From Enchytraeus crypticus (lineage: Eukaryota > Annelida > Clitellata > Enchytraeida > Enchytraeidae): a stretch of DNA of 64,000 nt. Positions 10,676 to 63,901 of the stretch are shown piece after piece. The position numbers were made by a program, and so were the translations under genes. Every line of letters begins with the position of its first letter. The stretch's first letter is position 1. Below the pieces are notes generated by a model, which did no database searches, was not told the origin of the DNA, and worked only from the letters and a program-made list of their open reading frames with translations. The DNA is taken from the NCBI GenBank assembly GCA_905160935.1, contig CAJHZI010000459.1:580001-644000 (forward strand), in the 5' to 3' direction.

Positions 10676-10768
10676 ATCTGATATAGATGACACACGCAAC
10701 GATAGCGATGACGAAACACGCTGTTATGATTACTGCCACTAGGATAAAGATATTCTGCGAAACTGAAT
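10676..10768 (-). CDS. Ig gene 1 exon 5: transmembrane helix
   Basis: The acceptor TGATACAG and donor T|GTAAGT give a 93-bp phase 1-1 exon. It encodes NIFILVAVIITACFVIAIVA and continues hydrophobic to VIYIR, a membrane span with a basic stop-transfer residue on the cytoplasmic side. Confidence 0.85.
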
Positions 10769-13700
10769 CTGTATCATACACATAAACAAAGTGCATTAAA
10801 AAGAATTTTATTTTATGACTTTGCTACATCTCTATTAGAAATTATCAGGAATTTCTGACGTGTAATACTCATTTAGAGCTACTGATGGACTATTTTCCAT
10901 TGATATAATTAAATGGTAAAAATGTCCTTATATATATAGTTATAATATTGGGAAATCAGATCCTTGTGAAAGTCTTTCAGATAATCTATAGTAATATTTT
11001 TCGTTTATTATGAGACTTGACATAAGAAAATCGTTAATAAATGGTAACAGGAAATTAAGCAACTATTACTGATTAAAACACACTATTTGAACATAAATAG
11101 CTCATCAAAAAATAAATAAGTAAAAATTCAGTCCTAAGAGGCTCTTGCTAAAATTTCGAACAACTGATAAAGAATATAATGTGAAATTATAAATACATGT
11201 ACACTACATATTGATTATGATGGACATATCAAATGATTTCGAATAGTCTAAAATAATTTCATATAAGTAGTCATTTTAACAAATCAGATGTGCTACAAAA
11301 AGCAATCAGGAGAGTAGTGATGTATCCTGTAGGAATGAATATCAAATGGTTGTGCATGTAGGCTGGATATGGACATGCCGTATGTTTGTTGGTGAGCTAA
11401 ATATCTTCTTAACTAGGCTGGAGCCAGTGGCGATGCCGATAAGTTGCTCGACCTCGGATCTGTACGTGCGGGTTTCAAATCCTTGGCTAGCCCGTCACTG
11501 ACATCGCTTTCGAGTGAAGAAACTGACGTTAACATTAGCTTTTATTAGGCACTTCTTTGTTAAACTTGGAAATATATGAAGATCAGATATGAATAGTTGG
11601 TCACAAGGCACAGAAGGAAGCCTGTTATTAGGAATATGAAGTGTCACAACTGATGTGCATTGAGTGTTTACAGTTCGACTGTTGGTTGTGGATATTCTCC
11701 GTTTTAATTTTCATACAACAACAACAATACGATTAGAGTGTTACTGTTGTTCATGACAACATTGAACACTGTGAGACCAAATCAAAGCCGATGAGCAGAG
11801 TGAGGGGTTCAGAAACGGTGCGAGCAAAAATCCGGGTAATCAGTCCAAGGAAGGGAGGATACTAGCGAAATAGGGGCTTAAGTGTTGGTCTCAGGTAATG
11901 AAATTTTGGTGGATAGGAAAAGTCGAAGATGAAAGCTTTCAAACTTTCAACCGCCTATGAAATGAATGGGATAAAATTTGAGCGTTTTGTGTAGTTTCAT
12001 GTACTATAGCAACCATTCAGCGCTTTAGAGACTTACAGATAAGTCGTTAATAACAGATTTTTATAACAATAATAATAATATAATAATCGAAACATACGCG
12101 ATTTTGGAGAACATGCAAATACAGACAAACAATTTTCGTTTTTCCATCACTATATAAGCTACAATTATTAATTCAACATATCTTTTTACCTTCTTGCACT
12201 CTAGTCTCCGATATCGCTAAGTCCCTGCTACAGTTAGAGTTCAGATCGAGAGGACAATAGGCAGTGCAGGTCACGTTTCCTGTTACATTCATGACGGAAA
12301 TACTGACGTCTGTAAGCTCGTTGTTGTCTGAAACCACGTCACCATCAGAACTTCTCCAAACGAAAGTGCAGTCATTCGTCTCGTTAAAGCAAATCAGAGG
12401 TGAGTAAAATGAGTGAAATATCTTCCTTTCTGGAAAGGCTACAAAATAAATGTGACAATTGGCCTGCACAATAGTTGTGTTCAGCAGTTCATTCATGTAA
12501 AAATCACTTGCAGTTATCGAAAGCTGAACATTCGTCATCCAAAGATACTGGAATAGAAATGCTTCAACCATCTCTATAGATGATATCTTTTAAAATAAAT
12601 GTCTGAGTCATGTGTCCCATAACTTGTATGTAAATATGGGCACAGTTTATTAGACAATTATGTTCTACTTGATTCTGCAGGCTTTGAATACGATAGTATA
12701 TACTCTGTGTAACATGCATACAACAGCTTTAATCTGACACCTTAAAATTGAAAGCCTTGTCGTCAGATATCATAACAATTTCGTTAATTACTACTACTGA
12801 GATGGTTTATACATTCGATTTCAATATCAGCAAATATTTGAAGTCATTTTTGATAATTGAACAGAAATTTAATCAGATATATTTCTTAAAAGAAATCGAA
12901 GTCACAATATACGTACGCTTCACCAAAACTCTAGGAGACGTCCAGTCAACATAAAATTGACCTCTAATTGCTTTAGTAGAGCTCAGCTGAGGTGAAAATA
13001 TGAACAATGATTGATTTAATTTCTCTGACATCTGAATGCTCACAGATGAAATTAGGTTGTTTGAATTTCGAATGTGGGTTGAATCGTTTAATGTAATATT
13101 GCCTCCATCAGATTTACTTTCAAACCAAGTAGGGCTAATAAAAATTTGATTTAATCCAAAGAATCTCAGTGCACACGTTATTGTAATGTTAAAGATATCA
13201 GCACAGTCGTTGTGATAAAACCAGCCCGATTCCTTTATATTGGTTTCACATTCAGGGCCTCCTGCAAAAGATAGTAGAATAATATGAAACTTATTGTGTT
13301 GCCTGTAACTAGCCTATATTTGAGGCGCTGATGAATAATTTACCGGCACTGAATCAAAATGTCACTGAAACGGATTTTAATTAAAATCACCAGGTTTGTA
13401 TAAAATGGTGAGGGCCACATAGACAGGTATTATGTCTGTGAATCTAACACAGAAATAACAGGGAAATTTAGTAGATTCACGCTGAGTATTGCTGCCAACA
13501 GAATGCTTCGCCTTTGCGGCGTGTCTGCTTCAACCTACAACGAACTCATTGTGCTATCGGACTACATCTTTGTTTCTATGTATCTTTGGTAGATAGCAGA
13601 ATTCAAACAAAGAGAAAAGCTTTTAATCTCATATGAAACTGTTCAAAAAGAAAGAATGGCGGATGTGAAGAAGTTAAAGGGTTCACAATGTGGCAGGAAG

Positions 13701-16700
13701 AGAATTTCAGATATGTATAGCTTAGATAGCTTGCTGCGAGATGGAACGTTTGGTCACTAATTATCTCAGAAGACCTACCTTGGATCTAGTTGACGACTGC
13801 TTAGAGGTAGGCTGCCTCACATGTAGTAGGTCTAAATGACACACGTAAAGATTTAACGTTTTATAAGAGAGATAAGTTAGAATACCTCCATTAATTAAGG
13901 TAAGAGCATTACGTTTAATAGGTTTATTTACGTCTTGCCGAAAATAACAGAAAATTTAAATAAAATTAACTCTTTTGCTTTCATAACATTTTGGATTTTA
14001 TTTTATTCATTGACCTAGTTAGTAGATAGAATTAAAGGTTTTACTTTTCAATAGCCATTGAAGAAGCTTTGCTTTTAGAATTATGTAGATATTAGACTGT
14101 TGGATATGAACTGCTAATGATATCTTACCTATAACAGTGAGATAAACACTTTTGTACTGTCCTACGTCGTAACCAAATCCCATCTCATCATAACAAGTGT
14201 ACTCTCCAGCATCTCCATACGTCACGTTCTTAATTACCAGGTTGTAGCGCTCCACTATGAACAGACCACGAAACTGAGGTTGTAGTACACCGCGACCAAT
14301 GTAGACATCCTCTTCTCTGTCAGATCCCACTGTCAGTCTTGACCATTTCACTGCGTCTGAGAGACTTGTGTTACATCTCAGCTCTACTCTAGATCCCACC
14401 ACTGCAAAACCATCTTCTGGCTTCTTAGTAAGTGGCCCGAACACTGTAAAATAGTGCATAGTATGTTTCATGGATGAAAGAAAATGGATGAAAGGAGGAA
14501 ATGGAAAAGTATAGATACCAGTCATGGCCGAAGGAATTATAGAAGCTTAAACAGTGAACTTAGAAGAATTACAGAAAAAGCAAAAGATCATTGGTGGAGT
14601 GAAAAGTGTGATGATTTAGCAGAATATGATAGAAGAGGAAGGTCGGATCTATTATGCCAGGAAGTTAGGATATTAACAAGAACCGATAAGAAAAAGAAAG
14701 GGGATGCAAAGAACATTAGTATAATGGATAAAGATGGAAAAATGAAGTCAGAGCTGGAAGAAATAAAAGAAAGATGGAGAGAATATGTAGAGGAATTGTA
14801 TGATAAGGCTGGGAAAACAGTTCAAGAGGATTTTAAAATAGAAGAAGAAAATATCATAGAAGACGATAAAACGGGACCCGACTTAATGAAGGAAGAAATT
14901 TATTCTGCAATTAACAGTATGAAGAAGGGGAAGGCAGCCGGAATAGATGAAATCCCAGAATAGTAAATAATCGCATTCAGTCGAAAGCAGAGATGATACT
15001 GAGCAAGACACTATTTGGTTTTAGGAAAGGATGCGGCACAAGAGAAGCAATAGGAGTAATGCGGGTTCGTTGCGAAAGAAGCTTAGAATATGGAAATGAT
15101 GTTTTTGCATGCTTTGTATACTTCGAGAAGGCCTTTGACAGGATTGATTGGATAACGATGATGAATATCTTAAAAAGAATAGGAATTGACTGGAGAGATA
15201 TAAGCCTAATTTTGAACTTGTACATGAATCAAAAAGCAGTAAGCAAAATCCAACAAGAATACTCAGAAGAAGGTGAAATAGGACGTAGAGTAAGACAAGG
15301 TTGTAGCATTTCGCCGCAGCTGTTAAACAGTTCCGCTGAGGCAATGATGGATGAAGCCATGGAAGACTTGGAAGAAGGAATAAAAGTAGGAGGGAATTTG
15401 TTACATGATGTATGATTTGCAGATGACTAAGGAATGGTAGCGGGAAGCGAGATTGGATTGCAGAAGATAATGGTACGGCTTTAAGATATGGCTATAAGCT
15501 TAATATAAAAAAGACCAAAGGTTATGAGAGTGTCCACTAATAAAGTTGAAGTTAATATCACAATAAATGGTACGAAATTGGAACAGGTAAGGAGTTTCAA
15601 ATATTTGGGTCATACTATAACCGATGAGGGGAAATGTGAGACGGAAATATGCAGTAGGATTGCACAAGCAAAAGCGGACTTTGGTAGCAGAAAAGAACTA
15701 TTAATAAAAAGTCTAAAAAAGACACAAAGATAAAGACAGTGAAAACTTTGGTTTGGACCACGCTATTGTATGGATGTGACACATGGACCTTAAGGAAGGA
15801 AGATATTAGGAAACTGGAGGCATTGGAAATGTGGATTTGGAGAAGAATGGAGAGGATTAGCCGGACCCAAAAGGCTACAAATGAGGACGTTCTAGAGAGA
15901 GTTGGCACAGATAGAGAGTTGAAAAATGTATAAAGAATTAGGAAGAAGAGTTGGATAGGTCACATACTAAGGCGGGAAGGTCTATTAAAAGAGGTCATAG
16001 AAGGTAGAATGGTAGGAAAATAGGCAGGGCAGGCCGAGATTAGGTATGTTAGATGATTTAAAGACCCACTCATATATGGAAATGAAGAGGAAGGCGGAAG
16101 ACAGAGAAGAGTGGAGGCGTTATGTACCATGGACCTGACAGTAGGCAGTGCACTAAGAGAGAGAGTATGTTTCATAGTATATTTGATATAAAATCATGTC
16201 AATGACGTGGAAATGGACTGTATTCAAAACCAAAATTTATTGTTCCCGAAACTAAATATAACAGGGTATGCTAAACCGATATGGGCGTGGTTGTAAATTC
16301 GACTGCTGTAAATGGACCCGATATCAACTTGATCAAAAAGTTGCCTTAAATTCTATCTTTAGGATTCTGCGTAATTTACTATTTTAGAGATAAGCATATA
16401 GGCCCGCGAGTGTATTTCTTTAAAATTGCAACCTGAGTAAAATGATTTCAATAACAAGGTTCATACAATTGTCAATATACTGTAATTACTACTGACTCTA
16501 TTACCTCGCAGAGCTTAAGCTCTGTTGTGGTAACTCTCTTCCTGATTATTTGTTTTGTTTCTAAATATGCTGTTTACTTTTTTATTATGACATGTAACAT
16601 ATGAAAATGTTGCATAGTTATACATATATAAACCCGATTTTTACGCTATTTGTATTTCTTTTGATTCGTTTCAAAGTACCTTGGCTACTATATATCGAGT

Positions 16701-16897
16701 AAACTGAATGTTACAATGTGAAGCAGTGAGAATTTGATCTACTTGAATAGTGTTTATGAATATGTGTTATTTTATTTAAACGTAGCCTAGATTTGTTATT
16801 GCAAATTCTTGATTTATGTTGTATGTAGCTTACCTTTATCAACTGTCACAATAAGTAATACGGCGAGGAGGAGTGAATTACTTTTACTAATCATCAT
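10676..16897 (-). CDS. Ig receptor gene 1: single-pass membrane protein with V-type Ig domain
   Basis: Five exons, all joining in phase 1: 16834-16897 (signal peptide), 14129-14443 (V-type Ig), 12917-13261 and 12190-12573 (two further ectodomain modules), and 10676-10768 (transmembrane). All introns show GT...AG. The modelled product has about 400 residues with many N-glycosylation sequons in the second and third modules, as expected for a cell-surface receptor. Cytoplasmic exons should lie below 10676 but I did not find them, so the 3' end is open. A LINE-Y copy sits antisense in intron 1, about 40 bp from the V exon acceptor. The V exon is nearly duplicated at 45028-45342, while the other ectodomain exons are not. 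Ligand and function are unknown; an immune or allorecognition-type role is inference from architecture and divergence. Confidence 0.78.
11412..11548 (+). mobile_element. SINE-A copy in Ig gene 1 intron
   Basis: Antisense to the host gene. It has the GGAGCCAGTGGCGATG head, box B GGTTTCAAATCC and the tail GAAACTGACGTTAACATTAG. Confidence 0.85.
12190..12573 (-). CDS. Ig gene 1 exon 4: third ectodomain module
   Basis: The acceptor CATCTATAG and donor G|GTAAAA give a 384-bp phase 1-1 exon. It contains ANCHIYF, ICFNETNDCTFVW and NVTCTAYCPLDLN, so it is Cys-rich with several sequons. An alternative acceptor, TATTCCAG (exon start 12547), would be phase 0. The phase-1 site was preferred because all neighbouring junctions are phase 1. 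Confidence 0.65.
12917..13261 (-). CDS. Ig gene 1 exon 3: second ectodomain module
   Basis: The acceptor CTTTTGCAG and donor C|GTACGT give a 345-bp, phase 1-1 exon fully open in that frame. It contains Cys residues in PECETN, NDCAD and ITCALR, core-like Trp in PTWFES, and several N-x-S/T sequons. It is probably a divergent Ig-like domain. A GTGAAG site six bases earlier is an alternative donor but would break the phase pattern. Confidence 0.65.
14129..14443 (-). CDS. Ig gene 1 exon 2: V-type Ig domain
   Basis: The acceptor TTTACAG precedes 14443 and the donor G|GTAAGA follows 14129. The 315-bp exon is phase 1-1. It encodes a complete Ig fold: B-strand Cys in VELRCNTS, core Trp in VKWSRL, and the F-strand signature DAGEYTCYDE, followed by a YLTV G strand. 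The closest relative is the exon at 45028-45342 (about 14 differences in 104 residues). Confidence 0.9.
14484..16165 (+). pseudogene. LINE-Y, longest copy, internally deleted
   Basis: Non-LTR retrotransposon ORF2 remnant in Ig gene 1 intron 1. A linker region ends at KKGKAAGIDEIPE (about 14925-14960). A deletion of RT sequence then joins to LFGFRKGCGTREA, YFEKAFDRIDW (motif A, about 15120) and EIGRRVRQGCSISPQL. FADD is interrupted by a stop (15411-15430). The C-terminal part includes TLLYGCDTWTL (about 15760) and WIGHILRREGL (about 15950). The 3' end is TACCATGGACCTG-CAGTGCACTAAGAGAGAG. Several stops and frameshifts make it inactive. The clade (RTE-, L2- or Jockey-like) is not resolved. Confidence 0.88.
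16166..16833. other. Remainder of Ig gene 1 intron 1
   Basis: No exon or repeat recognised between the LINE-Y 3' end and the signal-peptide exon. Confidence 0.4.
16834..16897 (-). CDS. Ig gene 1 exon 1: signal peptide
   Basis: ATG ATG start at 16892-16897. It encodes a short polar N-terminus, then a hydrophobic core NSLLLAVLLIVTV, ending DK plus one base at the donor G|GTAAGC (16828-16833). The length and hydrophobic profile fit a secretory signal peptide. Phase 1 matches the V exon. Confidence 0.75.
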
Positions 16898-24663: not shown

Positions 24664-24815
24664 CTTTTTGTTTTCTAACTGGCTAGAGCCAGAGGCGACG
24701 TCGGTAAGATACTCGACCGCTGATCAGTATGTACGGGGTTCAAATTCTGGGCTCGCCCGCCACTGACATCGCTTTCGAGTGAGGAAACTGACGTTAATCT
24801 TAGCTTTACCATCTT
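24664..24815 (+). mobile_element. SINE-A copy
   Basis: Full-length. Box A in GGCGACGTCGGTAAGA, box B GGTTCAAATTC, tail GAGGAAACTGACGTTAATCT. Confidence 0.88.
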
Positions 24816-25859: not shown

Positions 25860-26325
25860 AAATAGATTAAAGAAGTCAGAATGGGAAGAATAACAGGCAG
25901 AGGCTGTGCGAGATTAGGAATGTTAGATGATTTTTAACATGGACCTTAAGGAGGAAGATATTAAGAAACTGGAGGCATTGGAAATGAGGATTTAGAGTAG
26001 AATGGAGAGGATTGGCTGGACTCAAAAGGTTACAAATGAGGAAGTTCTGGAGAGAGTTGGAACAGATAGACAGTTGATAATGTATTATGGAATAGGAATA
26101 AGAATTGGATGGGACATATTCTAAGGGGAAACTTTACTAAAAGAGGTCATAGAAGGTAGAATTGGAGGGAAAGGAGGCAGAGCTAGGCCGAGATTAGGTA
26201 TGTTAGATAATTTAAAGAACCAAGCATATGTGGAAAGGACGAAGAATGAGAAAGACAGAGAGGAGTAGAGGCGTTATAGACCATGGACCTGCCAGTAGGC
26301 ACTGCACTAAGAGGGAGCTAGAATG
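25860..26325 (+). mobile_element. LINE-Y 3' fragment, shared with the lectin B locus
   Basis: Two joined pieces of the LINE-Y C-terminal region and the 3' tail ending GCAGTGCACTAAGAGGGAGC-like. The right junction into AGCTAGAATGATATTTC is identical to that at 59345-59370, so the insertion predates the lectin-locus duplication. Confidence 0.85.
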
Positions 26326-26429
26326 ATATTTCCATTGCAGATTTCTGGCTCGCTACAAAATGCAACAGATAATCACAAGTAAACCAAAAACTGAACAATA
26401 CAAAACTAAAGTAGAGATAGGATATTCAA

Positions 26430-26785
26430 CTATATATCTCTATTGTAAATCCAGCAAAACTGAAGGTGCCTGATAGCTTTTGCACCCTGTGTTTTCACTT
26501 CTTTGCCCCTGATGTAAGCGATACATGCAGATGAAGCAGGCCTCTCCAACGCCTTCTTATTGATTCCACCTTTCCCTCCATACGGGCCGTAAGTTCGATC
26601 CAAGTTGGTTGTAAAGGTCAATCTATCAATCATAAAACCATACTGTGCCGTCACTCCAACGATCCATTCGTCAGCTTTCAGTAGGAACTCATCGTCATCG
26701 TATTTATAGGACATTTCTGTCTCGAGCCCATAGTCACTACCTCCATGCAGCCTTATTTTTCCGTTACTGTAGCTCACCTCTATCC
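26430..26785 (-). CDS. Lectin A terminal exon: jacalin-like domain
   Basis: The acceptor TTTTAATTTTAAG gives a phase-1 start with GIEVSYSNG. Domain features are the GGSDYG loop, [21 protein letters not shown] and GPYGGKGG, then a C-terminal strand [12 protein letters not shown] and TAG. It is about 118 codons, shorter than a complete jacalin domain unless the preceding exon supplies the first strands. Confidence 0.8.
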
Positions 26786-28003
26786 CTTAAAATTAAAATA
26801 AATAATGCATTTATTTATCAAATGACAGTGAGACAATTTTCTTGTGAAATCTCTTATGCTAGTATTTACTAAGCACGCCATTATACGCGGATCACTTAAA
26901 ACTCTGAGAAGAGTTTATCTACCAATAGGTAATTTCACTTTTATTCATTACATTAAGGGTGTTACCAGACGGCTGGGCCATATTATATAACTATTTCAGT
27001 AAATTAAATCTTCAGATTACGTTCCGTCTAAGGATTTCATAGGCCTATATATCACTTAATAATATTTCCTTGATCCGCCAATTTATATTTCCATTGCAAT
27101 TTTAAATGACTTACATCATTCAGCAACCAACCCACATCACATATTCCCCACCCAACGCCCATGAAACACCTTCAACAAGATCTTCAAGAGTTTCAAATTG
27201 AAGAATGGTGCAACCAAGATACATGTATATAGACTACAGGCAAAATATAAAAATCTCGAATCCAGACACATAAAATGAAGTCAGATTACAAATTAAACAG
27301 AGTGCACCGGAATAAAATAAAAGTTTTGACGTAGGGCTAATGTTGACGTCAGTTTCCTCACTCGAAAGCGTGTCAGAGACGGGCGAGCAAAGTATTTGAA
27401 CCCCGCACATACTGATCCGCAGTCCAATATCTTACCGACACCGCCACTGGCTCCAGCCAATTGTAAACGTCGAATAAGAATTTATATTAAAAATATTCAG
27501 TAAAGTTCAAAGCATAATCAATTTAGGAACCTATAAAATGTAAAAAGGTAGCAAATCAAAAATGTCGACAAGAATATTGAGCGATGTACAATAATTAAAT
27601 ACCTCCAATAATTTTACGTTCATCAAATTGTCGGTAATGGAATTTCATTCCAGTGACGTAGAGTAAGGACTGATCGTCAAATGATTTGGGTGAATCATCA
27701 AAGATAGCGTAATCAGTGATATCTACATGCACTGGTTGGTTACTCAAATCATCAGCAGCTAACGCCTCTGACCATTTGTAGTTTATTTTAACATCTGTAC
27801 GACATCAAAATATAAAAATTAAGACATTGTTAAACATGGTCTCACAATTATGATAGGCTATATATATACATACATATATATGTACTTATATATATATATT
27901 TATGTATATATATATATGCGATATATATATATATATATATATACATACATATATATGTACTTATATATATATATATATATATATTTATGTATGTATATAT
28001 ATG

Positions 28004-28042
<39 letters not shown>

Positions 28043-28092
28043 TACATATATATGTACTTATATATATATATATTTATGTATATATATATATA

Positions 28093-28163
<71 letters not shown>

Positions 28164-28222
28164 ATACATATATATGTACTGATATATATATATATATATA
28201 TATTTATGTATATATATATATA

Positions 28223-28267
<45 letters not shown>

Positions 28268-39380: not shown

Positions 39381-39409
39381 GTCCACGAGGTTTTCTACAG
39401 CGGTTTACT

Positions 39410-39960: not shown

Positions 39961-40110
39961 GTATTATTATTATTATTATTATTTTTATTTTTATTTTTAT
40001 TTTTACTATTTTTATTTTTATTATTATTATTATTATTAGCAATAGTATTATTAGTATTAGTATTAGTATCAGTATTTTATAGAGCTATATTATCATCACC
40101 ATCATCATCC
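39961..40110. repeat. (ATT)n/(TTTTTA)n array
   Basis: ATT, ATTTTT and AGTATT tracts ending in a CATCATCATC run, marking the left edge of Ig gene 2 territory. Confidence 0.9.
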
Positions 40111-40451: not shown

Positions 40452-42730
40452 TCATTTGTTATTGTCAAGACGGCGCGAAATGTAGTGTTGTACGTATCTG
40501 AACTTGACGTTAAGCAGAAAACTACTTGTCAGCCTTCCTACCTCATCTGGTTCAACATTTGTTGTAGGATTAGCCTCAGTGGATGATGATGCAGTATTTT
40601 GTGTTAATTGGACAGAATTCCCATCTTGATCTAAGTTCTCATGTTCGTTGGCAGTCTTATCAACATGATGTTCTTGGATTAAAGGACAGCACTCACCGTT
40701 GTCACGAACTTCCACAGTCCGATATTTATCAGGGCTCTCTGGTTTACTATTGAAATTATTCGATATAGCTATACCTGAAAAAATGAATTTGCGAAATTAG
40801 CCAATTAAATAGTAAATCGGATTATCTTGCTCAGGAAGTAAATGGAGAGAGAACTATGTTCATTTCAAAAAGCATTTAAATACGCAATAACGCACACTAA
40901 GCCGTCAAAGACGCTATAAAAACCTATTTACGTGTAGTTGACCATCATGCATTCCTAAACAATGCAAACAAAAAATAAAGGAGTGAGTCAGTCTGTACGG
41001 AAGGCAGAGAAGAGTGGAGGCGTTATGTACCATGGACCTACCAGAAGGCTGTGCACTAAGAGAGAGAATAATAATAATATTATTATTATTAGTAAATTTT
41101 GCTCTGCACAGCGTTTAGTAAAAGTTTTAGTCTTTAATTAAGTTTTTTTAAAGTCGTAATTTGCCTTCGTCGAGACCTCGCGATATGTAGTGTTGAACGC
41201 ATCAGAACTTGACGTAAAATGAAAAGTACTTGTCTGTCAACCTACCTGAATCAACATTTGTTTCGAGAACGGCCACATGGCAGGGCGATGTAGTATTTTG
41301 TATGTCAGGATCTAAGTTCTGAGATTCACTGAGAGTCCCACCTGTTCGACCAGCAGAGAGTAAAGGAGAGCTCATACCGCAGTCATGAACTTTTACTTTC
41401 GGATTTTCATCAGCACTCTTCGTTCTAGTCTTGATATTGCATAGTGATTTTACTGAAAAAAAATTGAGAAATCAGTCAATTAAATAGTAAATCGGACAAT
41501 AAAACTCAGTAAGTAAATGAAAGAGAAAACACTCTTTATATCAAGACAACTCAAATATACAATAACACCCACTGGGCGGTCAAAGAGGTTATAATACCTT
41601 ATCCAGTTGACCACTCATCATGCATGCATAAAAATACAAACTAAAAGTAAAGTAGTGAGGCAGTCTGTTTGCTGGTGTTAATCATTTAAGCAATCAATAA
41701 TTTATGAATAAAAAAACCAAGCAATAATTCAGCATTCAAAACTAGGCAACTGAACAATAGTAAAACTGGAATGATAGTTATAATGTGATAGTGATATTCC
41801 TACTTACCAATAAAAAATATTACAACTGCAGCAAATATGACGACCAATGAACCAATAGCAATCCAAATCCATGTTTTATAACTTCTAGTATCTGTCACAA
41901 AATAAATAATATTTAAATTCATATACTTCATAATGGCTCATTTTAAGCATATTGCAACGGAAATTTAATTAACCATATATTAGGGCGTATTCCTTCTAGG
42001 ATCATAAAACCGATAATAGAACTCTTCCGGCCTCGATAGGACTCAGTAGTCGAACCCCGAACTAGATGATCTAACGCTTGGCATCTACACCACTAAGCCA
42101 CCGAGGCTTGTAACACTCTAATGGTTCAGTTTTGTTGAATTAAATTTCATACGTACGTACGTATATACAAACATACATACATTTACATACATACATACAT
42201 ATACAAATATATATATACATATACATACATACAAAAAGTCATATATACATGTGCGTATATGTATGTATGTGTTTATGTATGTATGTAGGTATGTACGTAT
42301 GTATGTATGTATGTATGCATGTATGTATGTATGTATGTATGTATGTATGCATGTAAGTATGTATGTATGTATGTATGTATGTATGTATGTATGTATGTAT
42401 GTATGTATGTATGTATGTATGTATGTATGTATGTATGTATGTATGTATGTATGTATGTATGCATGTGTGTGTATGTATGTATGTATGTATGTATGTATGT
42501 ATGTATGTATGTATGTATGTATGTATGTATGTATGTATAGGTATGCATGTATAGGTATGTATGTACCTACGTAGGTACGTACGCACATACATATATAGGT
42601 ACGTACGTGCGTACGTATGCATGTATGTATGTATGTATGTATGTATGTTGCAAGTATGTATGTATGTATGTATGTATGTATGTATGTATGTATGTATGTA
42701 TGTATGTATGTATGTATGTATGTATGTATG

Positions 42731-42761: not shown

Positions 42762-45342
42762 TGTATGTATGTATGTATGTATGTATGTATGTATGTATGT
42801 ATGTATGTATGTATGTATGTATGTATGTATGTATGTATGTATAGGTATGTATGTACCTACGTAGGTACGTACGCACATACATATATAGGTACGTACGTGC
42901 GTACGTATGTATGTATGTATGTATGTATGCATGTATGAGAGTGTGTATATGTGTGTGCTATATGTTACTTCTTAATATCATATATACCCCCAAATAAATT
43001 AGTGTAATTTAGCTTCAGTTTTCATTACTTCGTATTCAAGCATAAAGTTAGGATTTTTGAAGTTAAACATATTTTAATATAGTATTTTATGAAATTGCTA
43101 CCTTTTTATACAAAGTGAAAATTATCATTACACAATATCCTTGCATTGATAAGGTTTTCGTTATCTTGTGTAATCATTGTTAAAATCAAGAAATTAATTC
43201 TAAATTTGACTCTAATTTCATGTACATGAACAGTGAACATGTATACGAACATGTTCATGGTAACTGAGGTGAACGTTATTCCAGGATTTCTATAATTGTA
43301 CTTATATGTATGATCAACTTACTCTGTTTAGGTTTTACTATTTCATCAGACGTCCAACTTGACAAACCCATTGCATCACAAGTAATGTATGACTGATCTT
43401 GCATAATCGATGCGTTTAAAATTATGTCAGAATTCAATTTAGAAACTTTTCCCGCTCTTGATGTATAACTAGTAGAATATGGCTGAAGAAATAACTCGCT
43501 CACATCTTTCTCGCCGTGTCGTAGAGACCAGTTAAGCTCAGGTGACGTGAAGCCTCTGTAGGTCAGACTGCAGTTAATTGTTATCAGACCTGTAACTGCG
43601 CTCTCTGGTGACTCTTGAGTGAAGTTACTTTCTTGATGGCAAAATATCTCATTCGCTGATTAAAAGAAACAACATTTACTATTATTATGGGTGTACACTT
43701 AGAATTTTCAATAATGAAATAATGATGAAGTGAATGGAGACCTTTGGAAAATTAAGAAACAAGTTGAATTATTGAAAAAATTGAGACAAACTGCTGAAGA
43801 AAATAAGTTATCCTATTTATTATGCAGACACAAATTCGTACAATTAAATTATTATCGCAATTTTTTCTTTGACTTTTTGTTCCTTGTCAACTACTGCTTT
43901 TGAACTTACAAAATCTACATCATTCGTAGAATGCCTACAAATATCTACTCAACGTAGGCAAGGCACTTAAGGAATATAGGGCCTTTCCAATTAGCAGCAA
44001 GACGCCGTTAGCAACCTAGTAAGCGGCACTAATGACTTCTAGAACTTCATTTAATCACAGCTTGAATCATGTTATATCTCTTGGTCTTGGTCTCGAGGGG
44101 TCATAACCTGGTCTTGCCTTTGTCTCAGAGTGTTGGTCTTGAATACAAATCTGGATAAATTATGAGAGATAATTTGAATTCAAAATCAAAAAGAGCATCC
44201 ATTTTTTGTAAATTCCATTCAGTATAGAACCGTGAAAAATACATTATGATAGTGTATGAGCAGCATAAGTATCAGACATCAAAATATCTCCTTTCTTAAA
44301 TCAGTTATATATATTCTAAACTAAGTCAAATTAAATCATTTAACTATTCACAACTCTTGGCTTAAAATGCATTGTTAGTATTTGCGTTACTGTGTCTTTA
44401 TCATCTCGTATAAATGTAATGTAGTGTAATCATTATCGTATGAAACCAACCTGCGGCTGTTAGATTTTTTAAATAAACACAAGATTTAGTATATGTTTAC
44501 ATCAAGCTCAGTGGGAGGGCTCAATCATTTTAATTACCATTTAAACGCACTTCTTTCGTGGATAAGATTTTATCAGTAAAATATCGTATGACTGTTATGA
44601 TATAGTACCTTGCACTTAATGATATTATTGAACTTTTAATTTGCTTTTTGTTCCATTTATGTTTGCACGTTTTCATCGGCATGTCAGATTTCAAGTAATA
44701 AACGATTATATTAAACAAAGTTTGCCCTATAAAGTTTAATGCGCCATATTTCTAATATTTGATTATACTAGATTTATATAATTTTTGCATTTAAAATTAA
44801 GCCATAATATGGCGCTTTCTAAATTTGAATTTGTATGACGTAAGGAAGCAAATGACCTCTCTACGTACATGTAGATCATCTATGAATTCTAGTAGGGAAC
44901 GCCCACATTTAGCGCAAGCCGACATACATATAGATTAAATTAAATTTAAATCGGCTTCAAAGAATCTTTGCTCTTCAATATTTTTGTAAAACTTGTTGTT
45001 GTATATGAATCAGTACAAATATCTTACCTAGAACAGTGAGATAAACACTCTTGTACTGTTCTACGTCGTAACCAAATCCCATCTCATCATAACACGTGTA
45101 CTCTCCAGCGTCTTCATACGTCACGTTCTTAATTATCAGGTTGTAGCGCTCCACTGTGAACAGACCACGAAACTGAGGTTGTAGTACACCGCTACCAATG
45201 TAGACATCCTCTTCTCTGTCAGACCCTACTGTCAGTCTCGACCATTTCACAGGGTCTGGTAGATCTGTGCTGCACTTCAACTCTACTCGAGATCCCACCA
45301 CTGCAAAACCGTCTTCTGGTTTTTCAATAAGTGACCCAAAAG
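40452..45342 (-). CDS. Ig receptor gene 2: V-type Ig membrane protein with duplicated tail exons
   Basis: Exons on the minus strand: 45028-45342 (V-type Ig), 43323-43655 (second Ig), 41808-41891 (transmembrane), 41246-41452 (tail 1), and 40542-40774 or 40452-40774 (tail 2, spliced or terminal). All junctions up to tail 2 are phase 1. The signal-peptide exon was not found upstream of 45342. The V exon is about 87% identical in protein to that of Ig gene 1, whereas the second Ig exon is unrelated to gene 1 exons 3-4. The tails are Ser/Thr/Asp-rich, without an obvious ITIM or ITAM. A single-pass surface receptor is well supported; its ligand is unknown. Tail 2 may splice on towards exons at 35.2 kb. 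Confidence 0.78.
40542..40774 (-). CDS. Ig gene 2 cytoplasmic tail exon 2
   Basis: Acceptor ACCTGAAA complement (TTTCAG) at 40775-40780, phase-1 start. It encodes NSKPESPDKYRTVEVRDNGE and ends NVEPDE at the donor GAG|GTAGGA in phase 0. If not spliced, it reads on to a stop at 40452-40454 (about 30 further codons) and would be terminal. Confidence 0.7.
40985..41072 (+). mobile_element. LINE-Y 3' tail fragment in Ig gene 2 intron
   Basis: GGCAGAGAAGAGTGGAGGCG, TATGTACCATGGACCTACC and GTGCACTAAGAGAGAG, then (AAT)n. Confidence 0.8.
41246..41452 (-). CDS. Ig gene 2 cytoplasmic tail exon 1
   Basis: 207 bp, phase 1-1, acceptor TTTTTTTCAG, donor G|GTAGGT. Begins KSLCNIKTRTKSADENPKVK and ends HVAVLETNVDS. 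It is homologous to tail exon 2 with shared flanking introns. Confidence 0.78.
41808..41891 (-). CDS. Ig gene 2 transmembrane exon
   Basis: 84 bp, phase 1-1, acceptor TTGTGACAG, donor G|GTAAGT. It encodes WIWIAIGSLVVIFAAVVIFF, a single membrane span. Confidence 0.88.
42015..42112 (-). ncRNA. tRNA-like sequence (SINE head or tRNA pseudogene)
   Basis: On the minus strand, GCCTCGGTGGCTTAGTGGTG holds a box A (TGGCTTAGTGG), with box B GGTTCGACTA about 35 nt on, and 3' sequence CGAGGC that can pair with GCCTCG as an acceptor stem. I cannot assign an anticodon confidently. It lies in a Ig gene 2 intron and is single-copy here. Confidence 0.4.
42155..42935. repeat. (GTAT)n tetranucleotide array with higher-order duplication
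   Basis: Nearly 800 bp of ATGT/GTAT repeats in an Ig gene 2 intron. The non-repetitive island GTACCTACGTAGGTACGTAC with ATACATATATAGGTACGTAC occurs twice, at about 42555-42615 and 42850-42905, so a unit of about 295 bp was itself duplicated. The islands contain the perfect palindrome TACCTACGTAGGTA. Confidence 0.95.
42936..43322. other. Ig gene 2 intron, unassigned
   Basis: Nothing recognised apart from TTCATGTACATGAA-like palindromic words near 43220-43255. Confidence 0.4.
43323..43655 (-). CDS. Ig gene 2 second Ig-like exon
   Basis: Acceptor TTTTAATCAG, donor A|GTAAGT, 333 bp, phase 1-1. INCSLTYRG (B strand), LNWSLRHG (core Trp) and SYITCDAMG (F strand) outline a C2-like Ig domain. It has sequons and no similarity to Ig gene 1 exons 3 and 4 that I can see. 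Confidence 0.82.
43656..45027. other. Ig gene 2 intron between V and second Ig exons
   Basis: About 1.4 kb. I see no additional exon with Ig signatures and no clear repeat, so the extra ectodomain module of Ig gene 1 seems to have no counterpart here. Confidence 0.4.
45028..45342 (-). CDS. Ig gene 2 V-type Ig exon
   Basis: Acceptor CTGCTTTCAG, donor G|GTAAGA, 315 bp, phase 1-1. B-strand Cys in VELKCSTD, Trp in VKWSRL, and DAGEYTCYDE. Same length and splice sites as 14129-14443. Confidence 0.9.
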
Positions 45343-46737: not shown

Positions 46738-47435
46738 GTCCGATAATATTTTTATTGTCTCCGAAAAGATATATTGCTTTCTTATCAAATTATATTAGCC
46801 AACTAAGGTGTAGTACAAAATAGCACTCTGAGGTTGATTAACCAGTGCTTTTCAGTCTTCTGATATGACACGCGCTTTAAGGTCAAAAGTTGCTAACAGT
46901 TGTTCCATTACGCGTTTGTCGAGTCAAACGTAATCCCTCTTTCAGTAATTGTGCATTAAACGTATGTGTAACTTACAATTAGAAGAAGTAGGTTTAAAAG
47001 TATTATTTTACTTTGTGAGAAATTTTTTTTTTCTTTTCTGTAGAGTAATTAAACAGATGATCAAAAAAATTGAAAAATTACGAGGTTTCAGAAATCCCAT
47101 GTTGCTAAAGCCTTCTCTAATTACGCCCTAGCACCAAATATCCCATTAAAACTTCAAGCGTCGCTATTGTAGAAGTAACTTAGGAGAATGAGTCACCGTG
47201 TTTAGAAAGTTAAAACCAAATGAAGACAGTTCATGAAATACGTAAGTGCTTGATACTGAACCAACAAAAATTCTGAACAAAAGACAAACAAAATTTATTA
47301 CTTTATTTATGCTAATAGCATTGTGCTGACCCCACACTTGCTGCAGATTTGCCCCTTCTGCGCAGTACTAACTGTGTCAATTAATTATATTAATTATGCT
47401 TATTGTATCTAATTGACTACAGAGATACAGAATTA
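46738..47435. other. Unassigned stretch
   Basis: No exon, signal-peptide candidate or repeat that I could support, although the missing exon 1 of Ig gene 2 should lie somewhere between 45.4 and about 50 kb. Confidence 0.35.
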
Positions 47436-58934: not shown

Positions 58935-59360
58935 AATGAGGAAGTTCTAGAAGGAGTTGACCCAGATGGACAGTTGATAAATGTATTAAGAAATAGGAAG
59001 AAGAGTTAGATAGGACATATTATAAGGGGGGAAGGTCTATTAATAGAGATCATAGAAGGTAGAATTGAAGGAAAAAGAGGCAGTTGCAAACCGAGATTAG
59101 GTATGTTAGAGAACTCTGGTAAAGCTAAGGCTAACGTCAGTTTCCTCACTCGAAAGCGATTTCAGTGACGGGCGATCCCAGGATTTGAACCCCGCACTTA
59201 CTGATGATAAAAAGACCCACCTAGACCCAGATGATTTAATGACCCACGCATACATGTAAATGGAAATAAAGAGGAAAGCGAACGACAGAGAAGCGTGGAG
59301 GCGTTATATAGCATGGACCTGCCATTAGGCAGTGCTTTAGAGGTAGCTAGAATGATATTT
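58935..59360 (+). mobile_element. LINE-Y 3' fragment at the lectin B locus
   Basis: Orthologous in position to 25980-26325, with the same 3' junction into AGCTAGAATGATATTTC. It is split by a SINE-A at 59110-59207. Confidence 0.85.
59110..59207 (-). mobile_element. SINE-A nested in LINE-Y, truncated
   Basis: Interrupts GTATGTTAGA|...|AAAGACCCA of LINE-Y. The lectin A copy of the same LINE is uninterrupted here. The SINE lacks its head beyond CTTACTGATGAT. Confidence 0.85.
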
Positions 59361-59444
59361 CAATTGCAGATTTACGGCTCGCTGCAACAAGTAACAGATC
59401 ATCACATGAAACCAAAAGTGAAAAATAATACACTAACGTAATGC

Positions 59445-59812
59445 TTACGGACTTTCACACTTAGTGTCTTTCTTGTAAATCCAGCAAAACTGAAGGTTTC
59501 TGACAGCTAATGCGCCTTGAGTTGTCACTTCCTTGCCCTTGATGTAGGCCAAATATGCAGATTCAGCAGGTCACTCCAATACCCTCTGATTTCCACCTTT
59601 CCCTCCAAACGGTTTGGGAGTTCGTTCCTTGTTGGTTGTAAAGGTCAAGCTATCGATCATAAAACCAGAATGAGCTGTCACTCTAACGATCCGCTCGTCA
59701 GCATCCAGTACAAACTCTTGTGGTTCCAATGTGTAGGGCATATCTGTCACGGGCTCATAATCACTACCTCCATGCAGCTTTCTCGTTCCGTTGTTGTAGC
59801 TTACCTCTATCC
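59445..59812 (-). pseudogene. Lectin B jacalin-like exon with premature stop
   Basis: GIEVSYNNG, HGGSDYEPVTDMPYTLE, FMIDSLTFTTNKERTP and FGGKGG match copy A. TGA at 59571-59573, then the old frame continues to FCWIYKKD and TAA. Confidence 0.8.
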
Positions 59813-60230
59813 CTTAAAATTAAAATAAATAATGCATTTATTTATCAAATGACAATAAGTAGATTTATTTGTTAAGTCTTGTATTTACGTCGTAATCTGC
59901 AGATCACTTATGCCTCGGTGTAGAGTTTATCTGCCGATGGGGAATTGAGGTATTTTTATTTTTATTTTCGTTTTTTGCCAAACGGCTTGCACATAATAAA
60001 TAACTATTTCAGTAAATTCAATCTTCAGCTTACGTTCCGTGTAAGGATTTACTAGGCCTATATATCACTTAATAGTCTTTACCTCGATCCGACAATATAT
60101 CTTTCCATTGTATTTTTCCATCATTTACATCATTCAGCAACCAACCCACATCATCCCCAATGAAATATCCTATTCAGCTCTTCAAAAGTCTCAAACTAAA
60201 TTATGGTACAACTCAGAGATATAGATTACA
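59813..60230. other. Lectin B intron, colinear with lectin A
   Basis: Aligns with 26786-27235 (AATAATGCATTTATTTATCA, AACCAACCCACATCA). No further features. Confidence 0.6.
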
Positions 60231-60360
60231 ACTCGCTCTCTTAGTGCACTGCCTACTGGCAGGTCCATGGTATATAACGCCTCCTCTCTTCTCTACCTTC
60301 CGCTTTCTTCTTCATTTTCACATATGTGTGGGTATTTGAATCATCTAATATACCTAATCT
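60231..60360 (-). mobile_element. LINE-Y 3' tail in lectin B intron
   Basis: CTCTTAGTGCACTGCC, GGCAGGTCCATGGTATATAA and ACATATGTGTGGGTA-type sequence. Absent from the lectin A intron at the matching point (about 27235). Confidence 0.82.
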
Positions 60361-60404
60361 AATCTAATACTATATACATGTATGGTACATACTTACCATA
60401 TAAA

Positions 60405-60468
60405 ATATAGAATGTCTTAATATCGTAGGGATAACGTCATGAAGTTCAAAATGAAGATAAATTGAAGT
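60405..60468 (+). mobile_element. SINE-B fragment
   Basis: GAATGTCTTAATATCGTAGG then ACGTCATGAAGTTC, the 5' part of SINE-B only. Confidence 0.6.
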
Positions 60469-60469
60469 T

Positions 60470-60895
60470 CAACTGTCCATCTGTGTCAACTCTCTCCAGA
60501 ACTTCCTCATTTGTAACCTTTGAGTTCAGCTAATCCTCTCCATTCTTCTTCAAATCCACATTTCCAATGCCTTCAGTTTCCTAATATCTTCCTTCCTTTA
60601 GGTCCACGTTTCACATCCATACAATAGCGTGGTAAAAATAAAATTTTCACTATTTTTATCTTTGTGATTTTCTTCAGACTTTTTGTTAAAGTTCTTTCCT
60701 ATTCCCGAGGCCGCTTTTGCTTGTGCAATCCTACTGCATATTACAGTCTCACAATTCCCTTTCTATAACTGAAGTCAACCAATTTCTGTCCTCTCTCATT
60801 TTTTCCCTAGACGATATTCCCCAATTTCATTTCCTTCTCTCCCTTCACCCACCACCGCCTTCCAATCACCCATAACTATCACTTTATCTGTGGCT
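60470..60895 (-). mobile_element. LINE-Y C-terminal fragment in lectin B intron
   Basis: Inverted match to 15690-15930 (AACTTCCTCATTTGTAACCT, CCACGTTTCACATCCATACA, TATCTTTGTGATTTTCTTCAG) and further 5' RT-linked sequence to 60895. Confidence 0.82.
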
Positions 60896-61184
60896 TTTTT
60901 TTTTTTTTTCAGTCCTTATATTTTTCAACCAAAATACAAAAAATTTTACAACCAGAATATAAAAATATCCCACCTAGACACATCAAGTGACGACAGCATA
61001 CAAATAAAGCAAAGTGCAATGGAAAAAAATATAAATTATGACATCGCGCAAGAATTAAAAGTCCAAAATTCAGTAAGGAACCTAGCATATTCAATTTAAG
61101 AACATATAAAATGTAAAAAATAAGTAAGTAAGACATCTGTAAACAAGTTTAAAAATCGATGTACATTGTACAATAAATACATAG

Positions 61185-61376
61185 CTCCAATAATTTTACG
61201 TCCATCAAATTGACGGTAATGGAATTTCATTCCAGTGACGTAAAGTTCGGGCTGTACATCAAATGATTTGGGTGAATCATCAAAGTTAGCGTAATCAGTG
61301 ATATTTACATGCACTGGTTGGTTACTCAAATCATCAGCAGCTAACGCCTCTGACCATTTGTAGTTCATAGGATCTT
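61185..61376 (-). pseudogene. Lectin B exon 3 with displaced donor
   Basis: 192-bp homologue of 27603-27794, acceptor TTCGTACAG, protein nearly identical ([20 protein letters not shown]). The donor junction reads GGAG-CTAT-GTATTT instead of GGAG-GTATTT. Confidence 0.8.
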
Positions 61377-61479
61377 CTGTACGAACACAAAGAATAAATA
61401 CAAAGTATCTTCATACATGGTATCACAACATCCACGATGACATCTCATAAGACGATGATTATCCAATGCATTAAGAGCT

Positions 61480-61600
61480 GAACCGGTTACTCATTGACAC
61501 GTTGTTAGGCAACGGATCAGTAGGTGCGTGATTCAAATACAGTGCTCTCACGGTCACTGACCTCTAGTCGAGCAGAAAACTGACGTTAATATTGTTTTTT
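61480..61600 (+). mobile_element. SINE-C copy in lectin B intron
   Basis: GGCAACGGATCAGTAGGTGC, GTGATTCAAATAC, GTGCTCTCACGGTCACTGAC, then AAACTGACGTTAATATTG, so it shares its tail with SINE-A. Confidence 0.6.
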
Positions 61601-61739
61601 TAGATGTTTACATATTTAATTCTGATTTACTTTACCCCCGCACTATTTTATCATTTTGATATATTGTTGTTGCTCGTCCAGTGACAATGATAAATTCAGT
61701 AGACTAGATAATGACTATGATCCGAGATGCACATTTATT

Positions 61740-61930
61740 ATACAGACTTTCATGTAAGTATGATATCTTCATGTTAGTATGATATATTCATGTAAGTATG
61801 AAATATTCATTTATGTATGATATATTCATGTATGATAATATTCATGTAAGTGTTATATCTTATGTATGTATGATATATTCATGTAAGTACATGATGTATC
61901 CATGTAAGTATGTATGAAATATTCATGTCT
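61740..61930. repeat. ATTCATGTAAGTATGATAT imperfect repeat
   Basis: Copy-B counterpart of 28290-28500, about nine loose units. Confidence 0.75.
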
Positions 61931-62283
61931 TGTCACGTCATGCGATCATCCTGTGGATGGTTACAGTCCCAGGATACTCACATCGAAATTTCTCTAAAGA
62001 TGTTTCTCATAAGATTTCTCTGTTATGTCTTTGTTATTTCTCTGAAAGAAAAATATACTAGTTGATTGATTCATTGATGATTGATTGATTCATTCATTGC
62101 AATCATATAAATAATAGGGCCTAATGTAGATAATCATATTTAGTTACTAAAGGATTGAGTCAGTCCGTCGTATGATGTCAGTCAATCAAAAATCACCTAC
62201 AATATTTTATTTTAATTAGCGACAATAGTCTCTTAATTGATTAATCCCCAAACTACTAAATAGCTAATCATCGATCAGTATCA

Positions 62284-62412
62284 GCTGGTAAAGCTAAGGT
62301 TAACGTCAGTTTCCTCACTCGAAAGCGAAGTCAATGACGGGCGTGACCATGATTTTAACTCCGCACTATTGATCTGCGGTCGAACCCGATATCGCCACTG
62401 GCTTCAGCCGGT
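62284..62412 (-). mobile_element. SINE-A copy in lectin B intron
   Basis: Inserted at a point where lectin A reads CAGTGACTAGGCAACTG uninterrupted (about 29730). Box B complement is mutated (GATTTTAACTCC). Confidence 0.82.
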
Positions 62413-62579
62413 GACTTGGCAACTGACGAAATAAAAGGCAAAAAGACTGTTATAATTATTATCTGATACATGTTATCATAATTAAGTTTACAGCGTAATA
62501 ACACTGCAACAGATATGAAGACGAAGTCACTAATCAAAATCTAAATATGCTACGATATGAACACCTATACGTGTATTGT

Positions 62580-63300
62580 TTGAATATTTCGTCAGGTAAG
62601 TCGAAATCCCGTGAACTTCTTTTCCATCCTCCGCGATCTAGATTTCTAGCAAGTTCTGTGCCACCGCTCCTATATTGAATTGTCAGAGTCAACACCTTTA
62701 AGTGCTTAGGTGTTACACTGCACTCCAACTTTTCTTTTTCTGTCCACATGGATGATATAATTAGCAGTTGCTCTTCTAATCTTTTTGCCATTCGCACTCT
62801 AAAATCAAAAGGTCTTAATTCTGACCTAATCGTCACTGTCTTTAAATCTATTGTACTCTCCAAGTTAACATATGCATCGCAATTTTGGTGGGGTTATGTT
62901 GGTTCCTCCGAGATGAACGCCTTGAAGCCTTCCTCAGGAAGGCTACAAGATGTAACTTCTATGATAGAGTACGATCTTTTGCAGATATCGCTGCCGATGC
63001 AGATGAGAAATTGTTTAACGCTATCATCAGTAACAAACAGCATGTCCTGCACCGGCTTCTTCCGCCGCTTAAAGATAATGTTAACTTTAAGCTCAGGGAG
63101 AGGGCTCACCCTTTCTCTCTACCATCTAAGCGCTCACCTTTGATGGATAAGAACTTTATAATTAGAATGCTATATGAAGACTCTTATTAAGTTTATTTTA
63201 AACAATGTCTGCTTATGTTTATTACTTTCTATATTGCCATTTGTGTGCGTGTACGTTTTCTGTGGTATGTCAGCTTGCATGTAATAAACGAATATAATAA
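62580..63300 (+). pseudogene. LINE ORF2 C-terminal fragment with 3' end
   Basis: KCLGVTLHSNFSFSVHMDDI leads through SKLTYASQFWWG in one frame. After a frameshift near 62930 it continues LEAFLRKATRCNFYD, DEKLFNAIISNKQHVLH and ends SPLMDKNFIIRMLYEDSY, the conserved terminus of a CR1/Jockey-type LINE. Its 3' UTR holds AATAAACGAATATAATAA. It is inserted in the lectin B intron and absent from the lectin A intron. Confidence 0.85.
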
Positions 63301-63843
63301 TTTAATTTGAAGAGAAACAAAGAGGGGAGAAATATGTGAAGAAATATTATGCCTATTCAATTTTTGGAAATGGCAATCCTGAGTAAAAGTCATTAAGTAA
63401 CTGTTCACGTGACGACGCTACATCTGACAGTCGTTTGTTTATAAACAATGCATTAAACACAATGATAAATACAGGAAAAATTATAAAATGTTCCTTAAAT
63501 TGATACTTATATTGGTATTTACCCCATAGAAGCTGATAATTACATACGTCTTCATAACATTTTACCATTTCCTATCTTCTAATAGGAAAGAAACACATTG
63601 AAAACGATTGTTTTGGGCATTTAAGATCAAACTGCTAGGATCGACAATACAATAAACATCATTTGTGTCAACAAGCTGCGTCCGGGCTTCACCTTCTATT
63701 GCCTGTTTACTTATTTCCTGTTGGGTATATCGTTCAACCTTGACAATTAATCGTCACACTTTTACGAGGAATAAGCTATACAAAGAGAAAACTATTAGAT
63801 TTAAGGAAGCTCCATCAGGAGTCCAATAGTAGTTGTTACTAAC
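63301..63843. other. Lectin B intron remainder
   Basis: Mostly unassigned. 63775-63830 is conserved with lectin A 29965-30020 (GAAAACTA.TAGATTTAAGG). Confidence 0.45.
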
Positions 63844-63901
63844 CGCCATTCTCATAAGCAACCAGAACACTCCCCTCCTCAGATATTCTTTCTAAATCTC
63901 C
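63844..63901 (-). CDS. Lectin B exon 2 homologue (58 bp)
   Basis: Acceptor TTTATTTCAG, donor G|GTTAGT, phase 0 to 1. It encodes GDLERISEEGSVLVAYENG. It is homologous to 30036-30078 by flanks (CTCCATCAGGAGTCCAATA in the following intron), but with a longer and different peptide. Confidence 0.6.

Follow-up and report, generated by a model that had tools for sequence, protein, structure and literature searches.

A tandem array of probable V-set receptor genes interleaved with jacalin-like lectin genes in the annelid Enchytraeus crypticus

The stretch analyzed here, a 64,000-nucleotide window of the Enchytraeus crypticus genome (C366:580001-644000, C366 being our label for the contig that holds it; 524 Mb and 802 contigs in the genome), lies in a tandem array of probable immunoglobulin superfamily (IgSF) receptor genes interleaved with genes for jacalin-like lectins. 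The exon that encodes the V-set domain of these receptors (the V exon) behaves like a cassette that is passed between copies, and its divergence is decoupled from that of the rest of the gene. We consider it fairly probable that the locus is an array of germline genes for surface recognition that gene conversion has diversified and in which the lectins are arrayed alongside the receptors.

Results

Layout of the array

Array units are named by the kilobase position of their V exon on C366; the two receptor genes of the window, Ig1 and Ig2, are units 594 and 625. We read 264 kb of this contig (560001-824000), which holds eight units (594, 625, 650, 690, 720, 759, 791, and 814), and a ninth unit (930) is known from two 3.3 kb loci only. 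All gene models are exon anatomies read from the sequence.

A whole-genome TBLASTN search with the Ig2 V exon returned 38 matches at E≤1e-3. Close copies (≥77% identity) number 23 genome-wide, 22 of them stop-free: 11 on C366, 7 on C789, and one each on C242, C324, C457, C159, and C421. Nine of the 11 copies on C366 are on the minus strand, spanning 594124 to 930592, and all seven on C789 are on the plus strand. Contig C338 has six V exon matches at 50-56% identity. Separately, another Ig array, with seven V-set matches at ~20 kb steps, lies on the minus strand of C617 (1861323-1981053) and is absent from the matches to the window V exon.

An earlier note on the window had described Ig and lectin modules alternating on one strand, with V exons 30,899 bp apart and lectin exons 33,582 bp apart, and we recovered both spacings (C366 594124 and 625023 for the V exons; 607604 and 641186 for the lectin first exons). 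Read along the minus strand, with coordinates falling, the genes come as LecB, Ig2, LecA, Ig1, and position 10676, at which the note began its cluster, is the last base ahead of the donor of the Ig1 transmembrane exon. The repeating cluster on one strand continues along the contig: each of the six C366 lectins found shares its strand with an upstream Ig unit and sits between successive V exons, 6.3-18.6 kb downstream of one, and downstream of each of the nine minus-strand receptors on C366 comes a gene for either a jacalin-like lectin or a GTPase. The third Ig module that the note suggested looking for to the right of 64 kb is present at C366:650615 (70,615 on the window scale), with further units to 930592, but it is 25.6 kb from Ig2, not 31 kb.

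The proposal that a block of 31-33 kb was duplicated as a fixed unit is not supported, because the steps between V exons vary from 23 to 116 kb and the two window units are not sister copies. In order along the minus strand of C366, the steps are 30.9, 25.6, 40.2, 29.2, 39.8, 31.5, 23.2, and 116 kb, with no fixed period. Outside the V exon, the nearest relatives among the units read are 594 and 720, 625 and 791, and 650 and 814, so that Ig1 with LecA and Ig2 with LecB do not pair as sisters. Self-alignment of the window gave 89 pairs at E≤1e-8, of which those in register cover the V exon (391 columns, 86%) and patches around the lectin (26205-30089 vs 59229-63912, 69-81%); the remaining pairs, not every one of which was classified, resemble dispersed repeats. 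Self-alignment and nearest-unit pairs thus both fail to support a single duplicated block.

Exon anatomy of the receptor genes

Judged from their exons, these genes probably encode single-pass IgSF receptors with a V-set domain. Both window V exons score above the curated Pfam V-set cut-off of 26 bits (28.3 and 31.9 bits), and Foldseek aligned a moderate-confidence model of the V exon (mean predicted local distance difference test score [pLDDT] 72.6) to the V-set structures of CD244, TIGIT, and antibody light-chain variable domains, with template modeling scores of 0.54-0.74 among the 50 matches listed. Signal-peptide exon candidates with a phase-1 GTAAGC donor occur in six of the eight units (594, 650, 690, 759, 791, and 814). 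Unit 625 has a homologous signal peptide without the donor, and on this reading Ig2 is possibly broken; no candidate was found in the sequence read for unit 720.

A single membrane-proximal exon follows V in units 625, 650, 690, 759, 791, and 814, with a phase-1 donor in all six, and units 594 and 720 carry two different ectodomain exons in its place. We call the membrane-proximal exon only Ig-like, because its best model is weak (mean pLDDT 63.8) and has no PDB match at E≤0.001. Each unit read (8/8) has a predicted transmembrane exon, which keeps the phase of the ectodomain exons and ends at a phase-1 donor. In units 625, 791, 650, and 814, the cytoplasmic exon donor is kept in all six copies (GTAGG in five, GTAAG in one), and the frames that run past it stop at different points. 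A single YxxV is present in the tail of unit 625 and is not found in unit 791.

Probable exchange of the V exon

In 14 V exons from five contigs, compared in 40 bp bins, mean identity per bin is 78-95% inside the exon, 62% in one boundary bin, and 36-45% in the three bins outside it. The V framework has 54 of 106 columns invariant across the 14 sequences, and the main alternative block reads GSGVLQPQFRGLFTVERYNL vs GNGFFTRQFIDRFTIDQNSL; its position in the moderate-confidence model suggests that it falls in the C''-D region, on the side of complementarity-determining region 2 (CDR2). The V exon is under purifying selection, with ratios of nonsynonymous to synonymous divergence (Ka/Ks) of 0.10-0.60 in 28 pairs from eight genes.

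In the pairs with both exons read, synonymous divergence of the V exon disagrees with that of the second exon. Units 814 and 930 have a Ks of 0.01 in the second exon and 0.37 in V. Between unit 759 and one C789 copy, V has a Ks of 0.25 (Ka 0.02) and the second exon a Ks of 1.27; for copy C789_159 against seven C366 units, Ks is 0.25-0.51 in V and 0.96-1.53 in the second exon. Over six units, Ks values of V, second exon, and lectin are uncorrelated (V vs second exon, r = 0.12, reached by 236/720 permutations; V vs lectin, r = 0.19, by 75/720; second exon vs lectin, r = 0.21, by 110/720).

Copy 930 is a mosaic when aligned to unit 814. Identity is 75-95% in the alignable 5' intron and 93-95% over the opening 120 bp of V. 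Within V, block 1 matches at 96% and block 5 at 52%; the stretch right after V has 50-65%, and the sequence from ~290 bp beyond V through the second exon has 90-100%. Block 5 of copy 930 is 100% identical to the C242 copy and 97% identical to unit 625. In a recombination test of our own on 49 V sites, the observed compatibility of neighboring sites was reached by 0/1000 shuffles.

The jacalin-like lectins

LecA exon 2 has ten matches genome-wide, six on C366 (at 606442, 639475, 678002, 773499, 805108, and 924295), two on C132, and one each on C628 and C701. Six genome matches to the Pfam Jacalin profile, LecB included, all exceed the cut-off. Among the exon-2 copies read, a G-x-M-[IV]-D motif is present in 9/9 and a GGxGG loop in 8/9; motif and loop together are what we take to be the sugar site, and the loop of the array lectins aligns to griffithsin. 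The pairing of Ig and jacalin genes stands for all six lectins on C366 but is not obligate. No V-set match was found near the four stand-alone lectins (on C132, C628, and C701) with 150 of 397 candidates scored, the one V-set match on C132 being ~515 kb from the lectins there, and at least one of these lectins, on C132, has the identical two-exon layout. Conversely, the genome search with LecA exon 2 gave no lectin match in the C789 array of seven V exons.

LecB looks broken, having lost its exon-1 donor and carrying a TGA inside. In exon 2 of the four younger array lectins (606, 639 = LecB, 805, and 924), the proportions of nonsynonymous (pN) and synonymous (pS) differences are 0.19 and 0.21 (ratio 0.90), and in exon 1 of the same four they are 0.14 and 0.10 (ratio 1.37); over the parts of the intervening intron that could be aligned, divergence is 0.15-0.20 (three pairs measured). 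For three stand-alone lectins, the pN/pS of exon 2 is 0.37. The array lectins are thus without net constraint, whereas the stand-alone lectins are constrained.

Variation in array exon 2 is uneven. Pooled over regions that were picked after the data had been seen, pN is ~0.31 and pS ~0.18 in columns 12-36 and 60-72, and pN is ~0.09 and pS ~0.17 in columns 84-116. Columns 60-72 precede the GGxGG loop. Variation is highest in predicted loops, one of them beside the putative sugar site. These values suggest diversifying selection on the lectin loops; the case for positive selection is suggestive only, because the regions were chosen afterwards and one loop stretch has a high pS (0.35, in single bins that range from 0 to 0.40).

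No convincing signal-peptide exon was found upstream of the lectins in the units inspected (650/814, LecA, and unit 690). A signal-like frame above LecA (window 29503-29604) was set aside as a candidate for lack of a donor, and so was its relative above the unit-690 lectin, whose frame is broken and lacks an ATG. In unit 805, exon 1 of the lectin is present a second time in tandem (C366:806270-806600, minus strand).

The large GTPase genes

The large GTPase that the earlier note placed beside the cluster is present at one end of the window, and GTPase genes recur within the array: they follow the three lectin-less units read (594, 720, and 759) and no other units in the 264 kb. Because 594 and 720 are sisters (88% across the GTPase), the placement of a GTPase where other units have a lectin reflects at most two independent events. 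The copy at C366:747317-750490 is open across 1058 codons; it scores 31.2 bits against MMR_HSR1 (cut-off 21.9) and 27.1 bits against AIG1, the profile of the AIG1/GIMAP GTPases (cut-off 27), with no single stretch passing the AIG1 cut-off alone. The window and unit-720 copies align at ~41% to residues 378-1058 of this copy. We considered whether the GTPase is part of the Ig gene and rejected the idea, because it has a long open reading frame (ORF) of its own. Duplicated RING/B-box (TRIM-like) genes also lie in the array, on the plus strand opposite to the receptors (C366:658865-660022 and ~702287-704299).

Discussion

A proposed germline recognition array

Under the explanation that we favor, each receptor would comprise a signal peptide, a V-set domain, one or two membrane-proximal domains, a transmembrane helix, and a cytoplasmic tail. 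Tandem and block duplication would produce the copies, and ectopic gene conversion or unequal crossing-over would then swap the V exon between copies and between arrays, in tracts that may be the whole V exon or pieces tens of bases long. Each gene would in this way carry a V cassette with its own history, of which the framework would stay constant and the C''-D block would take alternative forms. If expressed, the proteins would likely serve in surface recognition of self, microbes, or neighbors, in an immune or allorecognition role in which they would bind ligands, and the lectins would be a soluble or linked arm. A recognition function, which the earlier note had raised, is plausible.

Several observations weigh against this explanation. 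In the array lectins, pN is about equal to pS and one of the four compared has a stop, so they could in part be genes in decay, and some units are perhaps dead, because LecB appears broken and the Ig2 signal-peptide exon lacks a donor. No conserved tyrosine motif (immunoreceptor tyrosine-based inhibitory or activation motif) was seen by eye in the cytoplasmic exons of four of the eight units (625, 791, 650, and 814), although the tails may continue in more 3' exons. For the second ectodomain exon, neither a Pfam match nor, at E≤0.001, any structural match to its model was obtained. The second exon gives the same signal as V in our recombination test (42 sites, 0/1000 shuffles), so exchange extends beyond V. 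The sharing of V may also reflect selection on the V domain, but we favor exchange, because synonymous divergence in V is low.

How the lectins relate to the receptors

It is quite possible, if somewhat less probable than a recognition array with co-arrayed lectins, that the lectins are an independent secreted or cytosolic family caught in an expanding Ig array, with the pairing a by-product of duplication and no functional link. Lectins away from any V-set match, the C789 array without a lectin match, the uncorrelated divergences of receptor and lectin, and the lost donor and stop in one of the six C366 lectins (LecB) are all consistent with such a history. It accounts less well for the same-strand placement of all six lectins on C366, for the loss of net constraint in the array lectins relative to the stand-alone ones, and for a pN that is 3-fold higher in the loops than in the C-terminal part while pS is the same (in regions picked post hoc).

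A different relation, which we regard as rather unlikely, is that the jacalin exons serve the Ig gene as an alternative 3' end: joining the membrane-proximal exon to the transmembrane exon would give a membrane receptor, and joining it to the lectin exons would give a secreted V-Ig-jacalin product, comparable to a snail FREP in which jacalin replaces fibrinogen. Such a transcript is possible because the donors of the membrane-proximal exons (6/6) and the acceptors of the transmembrane exons and of lectin exon 1 are all in phase 1. The acceptors of LecA and of the Ig2 transmembrane exon both read ACAG|AT, the six C366 lectins lie downstream of a receptor and on its strand, and no start codon in lectin exon 1 is conserved across all five copies. 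Moreover, four ATG-to-donor frames are common to units 650 and 814 in the interval between receptor and lectin, and no clear signal peptide is found among them. However, phase 1 is also usual for signal-peptide exons, the distances to be spanned are ~4-16 kb, lectin and second-exon divergences do not co-vary, and the stand-alone C132 lectin shares the two-exon layout, no V-set match having been found near it. A lectin spliced right after cytoplasmic exon 2 was rejected as out of phase, since that exon ends in phase 0. We slightly prefer separate Ig and lectin genes over a fusion. Less likely still is the broader idea of a new modular class of recognition gene, in which an exchangeable germline V cassette would be joined to a 3' end spliced either to a membrane tail or to a diversifying jacalin, yielding matched surface and secreted forms.

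It is very improbable that the locus is a decaying, repeat-rich duplicated region in which the Ig and lectin exons are mostly pseudogene relics, as the LecB lesions, the missing donor of the Ig2 signal-peptide exon, and the match of two of the three GTPase copies to only part of the third might suggest, since nearly all close V exons are open, V is under purifying selection, transmembrane exons keep their donors in every unit read, and one GTPase is open over its full length.

Relation to known systems

To our knowledge, germline-diversified Ig receptor systems of invertebrates have been worked out mainly in hydroids and snails. The Alr genes of the Hydractinia allorecognition complex are arrayed, vary from copy to copy, and encode single-pass IgSF receptors whose membrane-distal domain is V-set-like, and allele-specific homophilic binding in this system governs fusion or rejection. 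The Enchytraeus array shares the predicted single-pass IgSF arrangement, the membrane-distal V-set-like domain, and the variable copies. Unlike Alr, it is an annelid array, its V exon is more alike between arrays than the next exon is, and jacalin and GTPase genes are interleaved in it. With jacalin-related lectins such as griffithsin and ZG16, the Enchytraeus lectins have the Jacalin profile, the motif, and the loop in common; in contrast to these proteins, six Enchytraeus lectins are interleaved with Ig receptors, and the array members are without net constraint.

The Sp185/333 (SpTransformer) proteins of sea urchins are not Ig proteins, and we know of no lectin partner for them. Passages of PMC5103432 and PMC8634487 present their genes as an immune family that lies in clusters containing repeats and segmental duplications, and in that respect, as far as those passages go, the Enchytraeus family is similar. 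The FREPs, CREPs, GREPs, and QREPs of snails, as outlined in part of PMC8878817, combine Ig domains with a lectin-type recognition domain, and a section of PMC7588048 states that FREP variants arise from germline sequences via gene conversion and point mutation. To the extent of these accounts, an association of Ig domains with a lectin-type recognition domain is common to both animals. In contrast to FREPs, the Enchytraeus lectin is a jacalin in separate downstream exons, and the Ig genes have a transmembrane exon in every unit read. FREPs are defined by a C-terminal fibrinogen domain, and the array falls outside that definition because its partner domain is a jacalin by Pfam. As for the wider FREP/CREP/GREP/QREP plan, in which Ig and lectin-type domains share one secreted protein, an in-frame splice from the membrane-proximal exon to the lectin exon would be possible.

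Our searches, confined to open-access PubMed Central papers, showed no recognizable report of an Ig/jacalin pairing or of an annelid V-set array. The locus looks like a recognition gene cluster of a known general sort, with a pairing that we did not find reported. An annelid array in which V exons are exchanged between contigs and the linked lectins are unconstrained would add an independent case, and a V exon that is exchanged as a unit apart from the gene around it would allow the part played by gene conversion to be measured directly.

Feature coordinates and further observations

Table 1. Exons and genes annotated in the window (window coordinates)
Feature	Position	Strand	Remarks
Ig1 signal-peptide exon candidate	16834..16897	-	MMISKSNSLLLAVLLIVTVDK; phase-1 donor GTAAGC
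Ig1 V-set exon	14129..14443	-	Phase 1-1; Pfam V-set, family matches, acceptor and donor
Ig1 second ectodomain exon	12924..13261	-	Common to unit 720; no Pfam match
Ig1 third ectodomain exon	12190..12547	-	Common to unit 720; no significant Pfam match
Ig1 transmembrane exon	10676..10768	-	Phase-1 donor GTAAGT
Ig2 signal-peptide remnant	47041..47100	-	Without the GTAAGC donor seen in the unit-791 homolog
Ig2 V-set exon	45028..45342	-	Phase 1-1; Pfam V-set 31.9 bits, predicted V-set fold, splice boundaries
Ig2 membrane-proximal ectodomain exon	43323..43655	-	Phase 1-1; C-W-C spacing Ig-like; no Pfam match, fold not confirmed
Ig2 transmembrane exon	41808..41891	-	Phase-1 donor
Ig2 cytoplasmic exon 1	41246..41452	-	Phase 1 in, phase 1 out
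Ig2 cytoplasmic exon 2	40542..40774	-	Phase 1 in, phase 0 out; conserved donor
LecA jacalin exon 1	27603..27794	-	Phase 1 in and out
LecA jacalin exon 2 with stop codon	26430..26785	-	Pfam Jacalin (PF01419) 36.2 bits, cut-off 22
LecB jacalin exon 1	61185..61376	-	CT where the LecA donor has GT
LecB jacalin exon 2	59445..59812	-	In-frame TGA inside; Jacalin 36.7 bits
Large GTPase ORF, 698 codons	1978..4074	-	Matches residues 378-1058 of the open 1058-residue copy at C366:747317-750490

ARAGORN found no tRNA in the window, and no Rfam match reached the gathering score there. A GC-rich open stretch on the minus strand (window 36159-40076), partly rich in Asn repeats, is perhaps a mobile element; it has no Pfam match over the cut-off in the three frames scanned, and relatives of parts of it lie in both orientations at C366:638146-638743, 646371-647009, and 808900-809801. 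Two reverse-transcriptase-like open frames were recognized by eye on the plus strand (window 9516-10111 and 14478-15415), the second directly upstream of the Ig1 V exon on the other strand. A dispersed repeat of ~130 bp occurs in both orientations at ~10 window sites, including 4553-4650, 11416-11544, 24676-24807, 35873-36001, and 62277-62412, and ATTATGTT is repeated 65 times in tandem at window 5202-5723. The mitochondrial contig of the genome has a cox1 whose TGA codons read as Trp. Under the invertebrate code, the 4.3 kb read from it carries nad3, nad2, cox1, cox2, and cox3 in this order on one strand (genes other than cox1 named by eye), an order typical of annelids, and the cox1 protein also looks annelid. 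Elsewhere in the genome, partial cox1 matches on nuclear contigs (C361:258458, C424:1323530, C796:266917, and C373:1509293) are probably mitochondrial insertions.

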